This document shows positions 8,154 to 16,143 of a DNA stretch of 21,625 bases, piece by piece. A model generated the notes under the pieces. It saw only the letters and a list, made by a program, of their open reading frames with translations. It searched no databases and had not been told where the DNA came from. Within the stretch, counting starts at the first letter, position 1. The number at the start of each line of letters is the position of its first letter. Made by a program: the position numbers and the translations under genes. Source of the DNA: a virus. The stretch covers positions 1 to 21,625 of the IMG/VR virus record IMGVR_UViG_3300009695_000024, one strand, 5' to 3'.

Positions 8154-8657
8154 TTATGATATATTTGGGACGGGATTTATTGGAAAATTTAATCTTGCGA
8201 ATTTGCCATAATATATAATTGCCGCCTCGTCGTAAGCGCGAGCAGCATCTTCCTCTACTTTAAACCGACCAAGAAATTTTTTCTTTCCATCAACATATAT
8301 TGATACCTCCCATTTTTTATCTCTCGCAAACCATGATACCCCTTTGTATTTTGATGAGGAATTTTTATCCTTCTTTCTGTTCATGCCATTCTCGGATGTG
8401 GTGCAATGTCTCATGTTTAGTCGCTGATTATTCCATCCGTCTCCGTCCTCATGATCTATCATTGGTTTTTCTGGATTATCACCCATAATGAGTCGGTGCA
8501 TCATCTGCATGGTTTGTTTGCCGTTAATTCTAATGCGTCTTACGGCATAAAATGTATTGCCGTCTTTCTGTGCATACCAATTAAATTGGCTAACCATTTC
8601 AAAATCTTCGTCATCAACCAAGGCTACTTGACCTTGTGTTAATTTTATTTCTTGCAT
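8154..8657 (-). CDS. HNH-AP2 homing-type endonuclease (copy 1)
   Basis: A 167-residue free-standing endonuclease. Residues 1-60 form the usual N-terminal part (LTQGQVALVDDEDFEMVSQFNWYAQ). The HNH nuclease centre spans about 54-90: H54, D68-H69, the DGDGWNN turn and N90, forming the beta-beta-alpha-metal fold that cuts DNA. An AP2 DNA-binding domain follows at about 101-159 (SSKYKGVSWFARDKKW, then EEDAARAYDEAA and ARLNFP). Copy 2 (15655-16143) is clearly related. The ATG at 8657 was chosen because it matches the start of copy 2; upstream in-frame ATGs would lie inside the pseudoknot leader. The gene has its own promoter and leader and looks like a mobile cassette. Confidence 0.9.
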   Translation of the reverse strand: MQEIKLTQGQVALVDDEDFEMVSQFNWYAQKDGNTFYAVRRIRINGKQTMQMMHRLIMGDNPEKPMIDHEDGDGWNNQRLNMRHCTTSENGMNRKKDKNSSSKYKGVSWFARDKKWEVSIYVDGKKKFLGRFKVEEDAARAYDEAAIIYYGKFARLNFPINPVPNIS

Positions 8658-8748
8658 TACTAAATGTTTAAAACAACAAACCCTCAAACTCAGCTTGCGG
8701 ACTAAGAATGAAGGTTTGCTAAAAAATATTATCAATTATGCCGCAAGA
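8655..8748 (-). promoter_or_regulatory. Pseudoknotted mRNA leader of HNH-AP2 copy 1
   Basis: The untranslated leader between promoter and start codon can fold as an H-type pseudoknot. Read on the minus strand, helix a is CTTGCGG (8747-8741) with CCGCAAG (8700-8694), 7 bp. Helix b is CAAACC (8718-8713) with GGTTTG (8682-8677), 6 bp. The order is a, b, a', b'. The first helix starts at about the predicted first transcribed base. TTTTAAA then precedes the ATG by nine bases. The same arrangement precedes two other genes here. Confidence 0.65.
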
Positions 8749-8787: not shown

Positions 8788-10318
8788 TATAATTACCAAA
8801 TATGTGTTGTGTTTTACCATCCGCATTAATAATCACATCTCCGATACCCCAGCTACTCAACCCTTCGTTGTACCCATGATCAAGTGTCTGACAACCAACT
8901 ACTAAACTACCATCCTGACGAGATGGCGTATGCGAGTGCGCAGTTATATTTCTCGAAGATAAATTCTTGAACTGAACCGAGCTGCCACGACTACCGTTAG
9001 TTCCTTTATCTCCGTGCATGTTCAATTCTATACCACAAACCAACACGCTATCATCCACTTTGGTTGCCGTTATGTCCATTTGCTTGACTAGATACGGAAA
9101 GACGCCACAATCCTCTCTTAATGCGATTGGGAGCAATTCCGCGTACTTGATTGCATTGGGAATATCGCGCCTCCAATCCATATTGATTATATATCGGTCT
9201 AACATGTTGTCGTGGTTCGAAGCAACTATTACGATATTATCGCATAGAAGTTTTAGTTCAGCAAGAAAATCCAATGTATCCTCAATCTCATTAGCCAGAC
9301 TATTTCTGCCGGACTCAAATCTTTTAACTTTCAGAACTGGATTCTTTTCCTCGTGAGGATTAATACTCTCACAATCCATCATATCGTATAGGATTAACAT
9401 CTTCGGGTTTATGGCAATTATCCTATTTCGGATTCTTTCACGAGCTTCTTGATCTAATTTAGAGGCATGAATATCACCCAATATGAGTGCTTCTGCCTTA
9501 AGCGCGGTGTATATAATTCCATCAGACACTCTCTTGTCGTAGTCGGTAAAATCGCCATCATCTCCGGCAGTCACGTAATGCATATCGCCATCTTGCACAA
9601 CAACAAAGCCATAAACATGATGGAAGCACCCCTTCTTTCCAGTCTTACTATCAGTATAGTTAGGCAACGTGCAAGCTCCGGTCGTCATCATAATTTTTGG
9701 CTTGTGCCCTTTCGGAACGGGCATAAACTGCATGTGAACTCTCGGATGCCCAAATATACACGACTCGGATGCGCTCAACCCGTTCAGTCCCGATAATGGC
9801 GTAACTGCTGTGGGTTGTATTTTAACGTCCGACATTAATTGAATACCATCGAAGAGATTATGTCTGTTGGCGTCCAAGTAGGGCAGGACTTCAGCGCACC
9901 AGACTTCCGCACGAGATTCTGAAAAAACGCTTGTGGGATTGGTATACCTGCTGGCGATTACATGTATCTCGGCATTTTTGAATCTGGCATAAGCTAATAG
10001 ATTATCCCAAAACGGTTTATGTATTGGAGTTGAGTTTAGAGCAGTGGTGATTATGTATGTCTTGGATGGGATGAGCTGCTTATGGGTGGCTTGCTCGTAT
10101 TCGTTAGATGTAGTGCAGGCAGACATGTAGAGAGAATACAAGTCCATATGAACTCCAGCAACGGGATTTCCGGCAGACCCAAGCATTTTGCGAACCCTGT
10201 ACCTTGCACTTTCCGTATCAATGGACGGGTCTTGGCTTACCATTTCCTTGGCAATAGCTCTCTTGTCTGTAATGCCATTGGCGATACATTCTCTAATAAT
10301 TTTTTCTGTGAAAATCAT
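8780..10318 (-). CDS. T5 A1-like metallophosphoesterase / DNase
   Basis: A 512-residue protein with the metal-site motifs of the calcineurin-like phosphoesterase fold: GDIH at about 281-284, YDMMD at about 311-315, SNHD at about 367-370, a HGDKG stretch at about 435-439, and AHSH at about 460-463. Size, motif spacing and phage context recall the phage T5 A1 protein, a nuclease involved in breaking down host DNA at infection. This comparison is from memory. The N-terminal about 45 residues look like a helix-turn-helix (IRECIANGITDKRAIAKEM). It is transcribed alone from a promoter 22 bases upstream, fitting early expression. A DNA-repair or recombination exonuclease (SbcD/Mre11-like) is the alternative. 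Confidence 0.65.
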   Translation of the reverse strand: MIFTEKIIRECIANGITDKRAIAKEMVSQDPSIDTESARYRVRKMLGSAGNPVAGVHMDLYSLYMSACTTSNEYEQATHKQLIPSKTYIITTALNSTPIHKPFWDNLLAYARFKNAEIHVIASRYTNPTSVFSESRAEVWCAEVLPYLDANRHNLFDGIQLMSDVKIQPTAVTPLSGLNGLSASESCIFGHPRVHMQFMPVPKGHKPKIMMTTGACTLPNYTDSKTGKKGCFHHVYGFVVVQDGDMHYVTAGDDGDFTDYDKRVSDGIIYTALKAEALILGDIHASKLDQEARERIRNRIIAINPKMLILYDMMDCESINPHEEKNPVLKVKRFESGRNSLANEIEDTLDFLAELKLLCDNIVIVASNHDNMLDRYIINMDWRRDIPNAIKYAELLPIALREDCGVFPYLVKQMDITATKVDDSVLVCGIELNMHGDKGTNGSRGSSVQFKNLSSRNITAHSHTPSRQDGSLVVGCQTLDHGYNEGLSSWGIGDVIINADGKTQHIFGNYIW

Positions 10319-10382: not shown

Positions 10383-10412
10383 AAAAAACCACCACTGAGA
10401 TATGTGGTGGTT
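10383..10412 (-). terminator. Rho-independent terminator of the ssDNA-binding-protein/RNA operon
   Basis: On the minus strand AACCACCAC (10395-10387 on the plus) and GTGGTGGTT (10404-10412) form a 9-bp stem with an 8-base loop, followed by six Ts. It ends the transcription unit that holds the ssDNA-binding-protein gene and the tRNA-like RNA, so that RNA can be co-transcribed with the operon. Confidence 0.85.
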
Positions 10413-10538
10413 AGTGTACTTGAAAGGCTTTACTGGTAGATATGCTCTGACACTCCGCAAACCAGTTTTAACAATTTAGTCAGCCTATCCCTCGATCCCA
10501 TATACCGATGGGATTCTTATGATTGCGGGTGCTTTACG
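10413..10538 (-). other. Noncoding stretch between tRNA-like RNA and terminator
   Basis: No gene is seen. Two hairpins can form: an 8-bp stem with one G-U pair (10494-10501 with 10508-10515, 6-base loop), and a 6-bp stem ACTGGT/ACCAGT (10432-10437 with 10461-10466). They may be part of the same structured transcript as the tRNA-like RNA, or processing or end elements. Confidence 0.4.
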
Positions 10539-10716
10539 TGGGGAGAGCAAGACTCAAACTTGCATGAATCAGTATAAGCAATTCTGATCCTCATGTGCCT
10601 TGAATAGAAGAATTTTAACGAGTTCGTGATCTCTTAGTGAGCGGGTGCACATCTTAACCTAAGCCCCGACCATTCTATTCAATGTGGTTAGCGTCTATCA
10701 ATTCCGCCACCTCCCC
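10539..10716 (-). ncRNA. tRNA-Leu-like RNA with anticodon arm replaced by about 100 nt
   Basis: On the minus strand the 5' part reads as a tRNA-Leu. An acceptor GGGGAGG (10716-10710) is followed by TG and a D-arm of the leucine type (GGCGGAATTGATAGACGC). The 3' part ends with T-arm GCAAG-TTTGAGT-CTTGC (10563-10547), acceptor TCTCCCC and discriminator A (10539). The two acceptor strands pair over all 7 positions with one G-U. A 7-bp long variable arm is at 10590-10566 (one G-U). Instead of the normal 17-base anticodon arm, about 100 bases lie between. These include TAACC/GGTTA, a perfect 10-bp inverted repeat TTGAATAGAA/TTCTATTCAA (10682-10673 with 10609-10600), and ATGTGC/GCACAT (10652-10647 with 10598-10593), in interlocked order. 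No CCA is encoded. No anticodon can be assigned. Confidence 0.6.
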
Positions 10717-10847
10717 ATCCTCGTCTTTCCGAGTGTGTGAATTTTCCCAGCTTCTGACTATTTCTTAGCCGCGATAAGCTCACTGGTTTCGCTGCGCTCC
10801 TATCCGATTACTAACGCAATTCAATAAGTCGGATGAATATATTATGT
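10717..10847 (-). other. Noncoding structured spacer after the ssDNA-binding-protein gene
   Basis: Between the ssDNA-binding-protein stop and the tRNA-like RNA. It holds no convincing gene. Two possible stems are seen on the minus strand: CCGA(C)TTA with TAATCGG (one bulge) near 10802-10831, and CTCG-GAAAGA-CGAG just before the tRNA-like 5' end (about 10721-10734). The second could be a processing signal. Confidence 0.35.
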
Positions 10848-11225
10848 TCAAAAAGGCAGGTCATCGCCATCTTTCTGATCTCCACCACTTTGCGTATCTC
10901 CCATTGGTGGCAAATCGTCCGCAGGTTTTGGTTTCGCCCCAGAAGTCTTCGTAATATTCACCTTCCATGCTGTTACGTTCGAAAAATACTTGCCGTTATA
11001 TTCGCGAGATTCTACATTAAATCCAACCTCAACCTCGTCGTCCACTCGCATATCTGCGATCATTTCCGGTTTGTTGAATACAGTGAAGGCTATTTGTTTT
11101 GGCCACTGACCCTCCGATTCCTGTATGACGAAATCACGTTTACTCCACGCTTTCCCAGACGATGCACTTGTTCCTGATGCCTCTGGCAGGATTGCTACCA
11201 CTATTCCACTAATTTTTAAATCCAT
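10848..11225 (-). CDS. DUF3127-type single-stranded DNA-binding protein
   Basis: A 125-residue protein with the pattern of the Bacteroidetes DUF3127 family, an OB-fold expected to coat single-stranded DNA in replication and recombination. The start MDLKISGIVVAILP, then WSKRDFVIQESEGQWPKQIAF, VGFNVESREYNGKYFSNVTAWKV fit five beta strands over residues 1-92. The rest is disordered and ends DGDDLPF, the acidic hydrophobic tip that bacterial SSB proteins use to recruit replication partners. The gene overlaps the previous gene by one base (TAATG). Its operon also includes small unknown genes. The DNA-binding function is inferred from family and tail and was not tested. Confidence 0.8.
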   Translation of the reverse strand: MDLKISGIVVAILPEASGTSASSGKAWSKRDFVIQESEGQWPKQIAFTVFNKPEMIADMRVDDEVEVGFNVESREYNGKYFSNVTAWKVNITKTSGAKPKPADDLPPMGDTQSGGDQKDGDDLPF

Positions 11226-15654: not shown

Positions 15655-16143
15655 TTATTTATTCTCTGAGAAATTTAACCATGCAAATTCACCAAAATAT
15701 TTTATCGCTGCCACGTCATAAGCGCGAGCTGCATCTTCTTCAATAATGAAGTATCCTAAAAACCCCATTTTGCCGTTTACCCTTATTTGCGCCAACCATT
15801 TTTGTCTTGACTCAATCCAACATACTCCTTTGTATTTAGAAGAAGAATTTTTACGAGATTTTTGATTCATTTGATTTTGCCTACGCGTACATGGTCTTAA
15901 ATTTAACCGCCAATTATTGCAACCGTCCCCATCCCAGTGGTCTACACACGGCTTTAGCGGATTATCGCCCATTATAAATCTGTGCATATACTGAAGAATA
16001 CGTTTGCCGTCAATGGTAACGGCTCTTTCTGCATAGAATATATTTCCAATTTTGTGTGCGCACCATTTGTGTTGATTTACCCTCTCGAAATCTTCATCAT
16101 CCACATACGCCACTTTTCCTTGTGTTAATTGTATTTCCCGCAT
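15655..16143 (-). CDS. HNH-AP2 homing-type endonuclease (copy 2)
   Basis: A 162-residue relative of copy 1. N-terminal part LTQGKVAYVDDEDFERVNQHKW. The HNH centre has H54, D68-H69, DGDGCNN and N90, all residues present. The AP2 domain is at about 101-158 (SSKYKGVCWIESRQKW; EEDAARAYDVAA; WLNFSENK). The two copies share most positions in both domains, which shows recent common origin but not identity. It sits between a nucleotide-modification-like gene and the helicase operon, has its own promoter and pseudoknot leader, and splits an otherwise continuous early region, like a mobile cassette. Confidence 0.9.
   Translation of the reverse strand: MREIQLTQGKVAYVDDEDFERVNQHKWCAHKIGNIFYAERAVTIDGKRILQYMHRFIMGDNPLKPCVDHWDGDGCNNWRLNLRPCTRRQNQMNQKSRKNSSSKYKGVCWIESRQKWLAQIRVNGKMGFLGYFIIEEDAARAYDVAAIKYFGEFAWLNFSENK

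Follow-up and report, generated by a model that had tools for sequence, protein, structure and literature searches.

The locus examined here raises the question of what an RNA that begins and ends like a tRNA-Leu, and carries no anticodon arm between those ends, is doing in a phage. The window, which covers all 21,625 bases of an IMG/VR phage record, encodes a terminase, a portal protein, a major head protein, a primase, an A1-type "DNA transfer" phosphoesterase and a ssDNA-binding protein. Homing endonuclease genes of the HNH/AP2 type are also found on its minus strand, at 8154-8735 (phrog_99) and at 15655-16143 (by sequence likeness). An earlier note on this DNA had proposed a tRNA-Leu-like RNA of 178 nt at 10539-10716. 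All the elements that it named were found, and the RNA lies on the minus strand, with nucleotide 1 at 10716 and A73 at 10539.

The acceptor stem pairs GGGGAGG (10710-10716) with TCTCCCC (10540-10546) over 7 bp including one G-U, the Leu-type D-arm GCG-GAATTGATAGA-CGC is located at 10691-10707, and the T-arm GCAAG-TTTGAGT-CTTGC at 10547-10563. A19 replaces G19 in the D-arm and is compensated by U56, which replaces C56 in the T-arm; because these positions changed together, the contact between the D-loop and the T-loop could still form, and the elbow pairs are A15-U48 and A19-U56. With A as its discriminator, the RNA possesses the 7-bp acceptor, D-arm, T-arm and A73 of an elongator tRNA-Leu, while the anticodon arm (5-bp stem, 7-nt loop and U33) is absent. 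In this region ARAGORN returned no tRNA or tmRNA, and Rfam, at its gathering threshold and at E<=10, returned no tRNA, tmRNA or intron. This silence is expected, as the interior measures 127 nt compared to approximately 35-40 nt in a normal tRNA.

The interior, or payload, can be described by four helices on the minus strand. Helix A (TAACC 10690-10686 / GGTTA 10659-10655, 5 bp) occupies the anticodon-stem position, helix B (TTGAATAGAA 10682-10673 / TTCTATTCAA 10609-10600, 10 bp) would form a loop-loop or pseudoknot interaction, and helix C (ATGTGC 10652-10647 / GCACAT 10598-10593, 6 bp) surrounds the 3′ strand of helix B. The 26-nt loop of helix A contains the 5′ strand of helix B and the loop of helix C contains its 3′ strand, which is the crossed arrangement of the three helices that had been claimed before. 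Hairpin D (ATCAG 10588-10584 / CTGAT 10572-10568, 5 bp) precedes the T-arm at the variable-arm position. After dinucleotide shuffling of the 127-nt interior, a perfect helix of at least 10 bp appeared in 0.5% of the sequences (P about 0.005 for helix B), and a crossed helix chain like that of the window RNA, with relaxed lengths, in 1.5%. A plain minimum free energy fold was only weakly better than that of shuffled sequences (z -1.7), a result that extensive pseudoknotting would lead one to expect. Comparison by blastn with phages and all fetched loci gave nothing above chance-level matches for the payload, and helices A, B and C are therefore predictions that rest on one sequence with the argument from the class, given below, behind them. 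An antisense role was considered and rejected: no complement of at least 12 nt to the RNA was found outside the T-arm, and the one to the T-arm sits within an unrelated coding frame.

The surroundings of the RNA are compact. Upstream is the ssDNA-binding protein gene ssb (10848-11225, minus strand, phrog_4932), and between its end at 10848 and the start of the phosphoesterase gene at 10318 the minus strand is noncoding. This stretch holds, 5′ to 3′, a hairpin CTCG-GAAAGA-CGAG-GAT (10717-10733) that abuts nucleotide 1 of the tRNA-like RNA, the tRNA-like RNA itself, a second conserved structured RNA directly downstream (10450-10532), and a terminator-like hairpin with a T-run (10387-10412) that closes the RNA region. 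The gene ssb and the tRNA-like RNA are probably co-transcribed. With ssb, two RNAs and a terminator in a row, the RNA may be a regulator transcribed with ssb, one of the roles suggested earlier.

Protein comparison identified three relatives of this phage. In L002 the locus is identical to that of the window and tells nothing on covariation. In L003 the same spot carries an anticodon-less tRNA-Leu-like RNA of 125 nt. Its 7-bp acceptor (AACTACA/TGTAGTT) is perfect, its D-arm is of the Leu type, a T-arm is present, and the interior is unrelated; immediately after a stop codon come the GAAAGA hairpin and then this tRNA-like RNA. In L004 the spot is taken by an ordinary tRNA-Thr(UGU). The locus is thus a tRNA slot, which is anticodon-less in two of its three distinct versions. 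The second conserved RNA always follows the slot (L003 5793-5874, L004 5170-5253), and its outer stem covaries, from CCGCAA/TTGCGG to CACGA/TCGTG. It shares an AATAGTC segment with RNA upstream of the GAAAGA hairpin.

Similar RNAs are widespread. A pattern in which a Leu-type D-arm and a T-arm stand too far apart matched at least 120 viral contigs, and a pattern with a longer interior likewise matched at least 120. After a filter that required paired acceptor, D- and T-arms and removed tandem ordinary tRNAs, there were at least 164 distinct elongated tRNA-like RNAs in at least 133 viral contigs, at least 152 of them with non-redundant payloads; a control run on shuffled sequence gave none. The marks of the class were taken to be paired acceptor, D- and T-arms with an end-to-end length above 93 nt, retained 15-48 and 19-56 pairs, and the lack of a canonical anticodon arm; the window RNA has such an elongated shell with both elbow pairs and no canonical anticodon arm. 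Among the matches listed, 109 of 114 non-redundant members retained the 15-48 pair, although the search had left base 48 free, and the 19-56 pair, which was partly constrained by the search, was G-C in 110 and A-U in 3 of the same 114. A canonical anticodon arm was present in 8 of the 114 members listed, compared to 87 of the 96 ordinary class II tRNAs taken from these loci. The acceptor AGTCAGG is common to 48 of the 152 members among the matches listed, with quite different interiors. The D-arm was of the Leu type in 130 of 152 members listed, and since the searches favored this type, the Leu bias may be partly of their making; A73 was absent from 47 of these 152. At least one member, of 104 nt, resides in the genome of Phocaeicola vulgatus ATCC 8482, a culturable reference strain, and many of the pattern matches in bacterial genomes were duplications or assembly gaps.

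Some phages carry arrays of distinct payloads (L156, L066, L469 and L385). In L156 (7688-12363), approximately 12 tRNA-like RNAs that share their ends (AGTCAGG..CCTGACTA) and differ in their interiors alternate with short ORFs; the region has only short ORFs and adjoins ordinary tRNAs. Collectively, the existence of the class is well supported by sequence comparison, and these results point to an unrecognized class of elongated anticodon-less RNAs rather than to a broken tRNA gene. The suggestion that the window RNA is a tRNA mimic was supported and extends to many viral contigs. No description of such RNAs was found in the open-access literature, which does not prove novelty, and no annotated phage records were found near L156, L150, L083 and L093.

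The payloads are very diverse across the class, and the inner helices of members other than the window RNA are under selection, as judged from their substitutions. In 14 pairs of homologous payloads there were 36 compensatory changes compared to 5.6 +- 2.4 expected, and the highest count among 300 simulations was 15; the null was a simple one of random substitutions and some of the counted helices overlap, but the sign of the excess should hold. In the pair L087/L093 both crossed helices compensate, one changing from ACCAC/GTGGT to GCTAC/GTAGC and the other from TGCCA/TGGCA to TGTCA/TGACA. In four pairs (L105/L138, L088/L186, L134/L190 and L162/L188) the two members have differing acceptor stems and a conserved interior. 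Because the payload persists when the acceptor stem is replaced, shell and payload behave as separable units. A crude pseudoknot scan of the 114 interiors among the matches listed gave a moderate excess, with nested helices in equal excess, so a specific slot architecture was tested instead. Strong helices that cross between the anticodon-stem loop and the 3′ variable slot numbered 32 compared to 13.3 +- 3.2 expected, while ordinary variable arms in the same comparison gave 16 compared to 10.1 +- 3.2, both among the matches listed. A three-helix kissing topology like that of the window RNA showed no class-wide enrichment (mean z -0.08) and was enriched in a subset only. A covariance model built on the L086/L087/L093/L129 subfamily (R1) found a single, uninformative match across 295 genomes from the order that includes P. 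vulgatus.

Several observations on individual payloads were made along the way. The payloads at L083 5748-5931 (minus reading), L150 3502-3655 and L089 10421-10615 (minus reading) seemingly enclose another tRNA-like unit, complete with a T-arm, so that one tRNA would sit inside another. On a bacterial genome contig (L295 5390-5912), three tandem tRNA-like RNAs with differing shells have a common core GCCTGAAAAGGCCGA..GAAT..GGTTATCG, that is, one payload in three shells. Class I tRNA-like RNAs of 204-221 nt at L207 1443-1646, L213 2361-2566 (Aquimarina) and L373 630-850 (a virus) share GCAGAAGCACCGAA..AGGGAAGCGC, with no Rfam family for L207 and L373, the two that were checked. One large phage (L410 5356-5474, 7723-7842 and 7858-7976) encodes class I tRNA-like RNAs of 119-120 nt that Rfam calls tRNA and that have related inserts with a GCAGCAA end. 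Homologous payloads are found in tRNA-Leu-like RNAs of approximately 165-170 nt at L390 4736-4905 and L312 556-721, one on a viral contig derived from an isolate and the other in a phage record from the human gut (MT838892.1). In bacterial genomes (L236, L259, L277, L286, L244 and L253), small hairpins inserted into the anticodon loop of tRNA-Leu genes are perhaps a separate kind of small intron.

The hairpin in front of the RNA is also an element in its own right. It is present in 55 viral contigs, in several cases immediately ahead of a tRNA-like RNA whose interior is long. At loci fetched by the tRNA-like patterns only, [stem]-GAAAGA-[stem] was found within 40 nt upstream of 9 of 150 members compared to 3 of 3000 random places, and its stems covary (CTCG/CGAG, CCCG/CGGG, CTTG/CAAG, ATAG/CTAT and ACCG/CGGT). 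The hairpin is not specific to the class, because it also precedes some ordinary tRNAs, among them a tRNA-Leu of Microcystis phage Mvi-JY20, and some protein genes. GAC-[stem]-GAAAGA-[stem] has no Rfam match and looks like an undescribed phage RNA element; GOLLD RNA is present at two of the loci that bear the hairpin.

Could the RNA nevertheless become, or once have been, a normal tRNA? A tRNA-Leu gene from which an intron or a small inserted element is excised would account for the complete acceptor, D- and T-arms, and an 83-nt element flanked by CACA on both sides could have the 10-bp repeat as its ends. The earlier remark that removal of one segment leaves no anticodon stem agreed with an exhaustive scan of single deletions across the interior, in the window and in L003, which gave no solution with a 5-bp anticodon stem and Y32-U33-R37, while 17.5% of shuffled interiors permit a deletion that restores the arm. 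An ordinary intron thus does not explain the window RNA, nor does an insertion of a simple kind. Fits to an intron in the anticodon loop were no more common in the class than in shuffled sequences (7 compared to 4.2 +- 1.9, for 114 members among the matches listed), and with no Rfam intron match we consider excision to a normal tRNA very improbable; the new kind of intron that had been proposed thus found no support. Slightly less probable still is a decaying pseudogene. It would fit an RNA that tRNA programs fail to recognize and the functional tRNA-Thr that fills the slot in L004, but the window RNA retains its 7-bp acceptor and a compensated A19/U56 contact, the elbow is conserved throughout the class, the inner helices of other members show compensating changes, and there are arrays; decay, also raised before, is therefore not supported.

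The reading that we prefer, with a probability of roughly 0.55, is that the window RNA belongs to a widespread class of phage RNAs in which the anticodon arm of a tRNA-Leu-like shell has given way to a payload that is structured and often pseudoknotted. The shell, the absent anticodon arm, the wide spread and the selection on payload helices of other members are seen in the sequences themselves, and the mechanism is what we infer from them. RNase P would cut the precursor at 10716/10717, RNase Z and the CCA enzyme would form the 3′ end at 10539, and the RNA would in this way be excised from the ssb-RNA transcript as a stable RNA with its ends protected in the fashion of a tRNA. Without an anticodon it presumably cannot decode, and the payload may act by binding a host or phage partner. 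Conservation of the shell by itself does not prove a role in processing. More broadly, and rather more tentatively, phages may use anticodon-less tRNA shells as a general delivery format, a new RNA class with tRNA-like processing and stability and with interchangeable pseudoknotted payloads directed at host targets, several to a phage.

The main rival to such a payload carrier is a decoy, in which a tRNA-targeting host defense (a tRNA nuclease or an effector of the retron or Septu type) binds or cuts the RNA instead of a real tRNA, the odd lower half being useless in translation and yet recognized, or resistant. Host defenses are known to cut tRNA-Tyr in the variable loop and are countered by phage tRNAs, for which a role as decoy or supplement was suggested (PMC13096335); the arrays and fast-changing lower halves of the class resemble an arms race. 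However, the known cases replace functional tRNAs, while the class RNAs have no anticodon, no defense target for them was identified, and a generic decoy does not need payload helices that are conserved across distant phages with differing acceptor stems. We regard the decoy as unlikely. It is improbable that the shell is punctuation only, marking RNase P and RNase Z cuts between ssb and the downstream RNA around a lower half of drifting filler. The GAAAGA hairpin that abuts nucleotide 1, the stop codon directly before hairpin and RNA in L003, and the alternation with short ORFs in L156, where one tRNA-like RNA starts 6 nt past a stop codon, would suit such a mark, but compensating changes occur in the payload helices of other members, and flanking ORFs lie at a median distance of more than 100 nt.

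A charged tRNA-like RNA, leucylated and serving as a small tmRNA or an amino-acid donor, is a little less probable again. LeuRS does not read the anticodon, so an anticodon-less RNA could be leucylated, and the window RNA keeps A73, a Leu-type D-arm, as most listed members do under a search that favored it, and the elbow. Leucylation may thus apply to the window RNA, but it cannot extend to the whole class, because 47 of 152 members among the matches listed have no A73. No tag reading frame was found over the interior on the minus strand among ORFs of at least 60 aa, and the likeness to tmRNA that had been remarked on found no support from ARAGORN or Rfam, neither of which returned a tmRNA.

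If our preferred reading is correct, much of the "odd tRNA" signal in phages comes from a distinct class of RNAs that bear cargo of their own, overlooked because programs that search for tRNAs require an anticodon arm and no Rfam family exists. The class would be a natural counterpart of an engineered scaffold and a possible source of phage regulators or counter-defense RNAs, and would give grounds for re-reading phage tRNA islands.

Compared to known systems, the RNA has several features of its own. tmRNA (SsrA) likewise has tRNA-like ends, no anticodon and pseudoknots between its ends, but the window RNA is 178 nt long and of the Leu type, with a D-arm and with G3-C70 rather than the G3-U70 of an Ala-type acceptor. 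A tRNA-Leu with a group I intron is also interrupted in the anticodon region; the interior here is far shorter, matches no group I model in Rfam, and allows no restoring deletion. Counter-defense phage tRNAs are phage-encoded and sometimes arrayed, as here, but are functional and carry an anticodon (PMC13096335 and references there). GOLLD and ROOL are structured phage RNAs of unassigned function near tRNA islands (PMC12286853), a setting that the class shares; they differ in sequence and size, and Rfam finds neither in the window. In function the nearest analogue would be the designed tRNA scaffold of Ponchon and colleagues (PMC3753655), which serves for RNA expression in E. coli. In it, the acceptor, T- and D-arms are likewise kept and a foreign structured RNA is inserted at the anticodon stem-loop. 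That scaffold is man-made from human tRNA-Lys3, whereas the phage class is natural, of the Leu type, with pseudoknotted payloads and often with a special hairpin in front.
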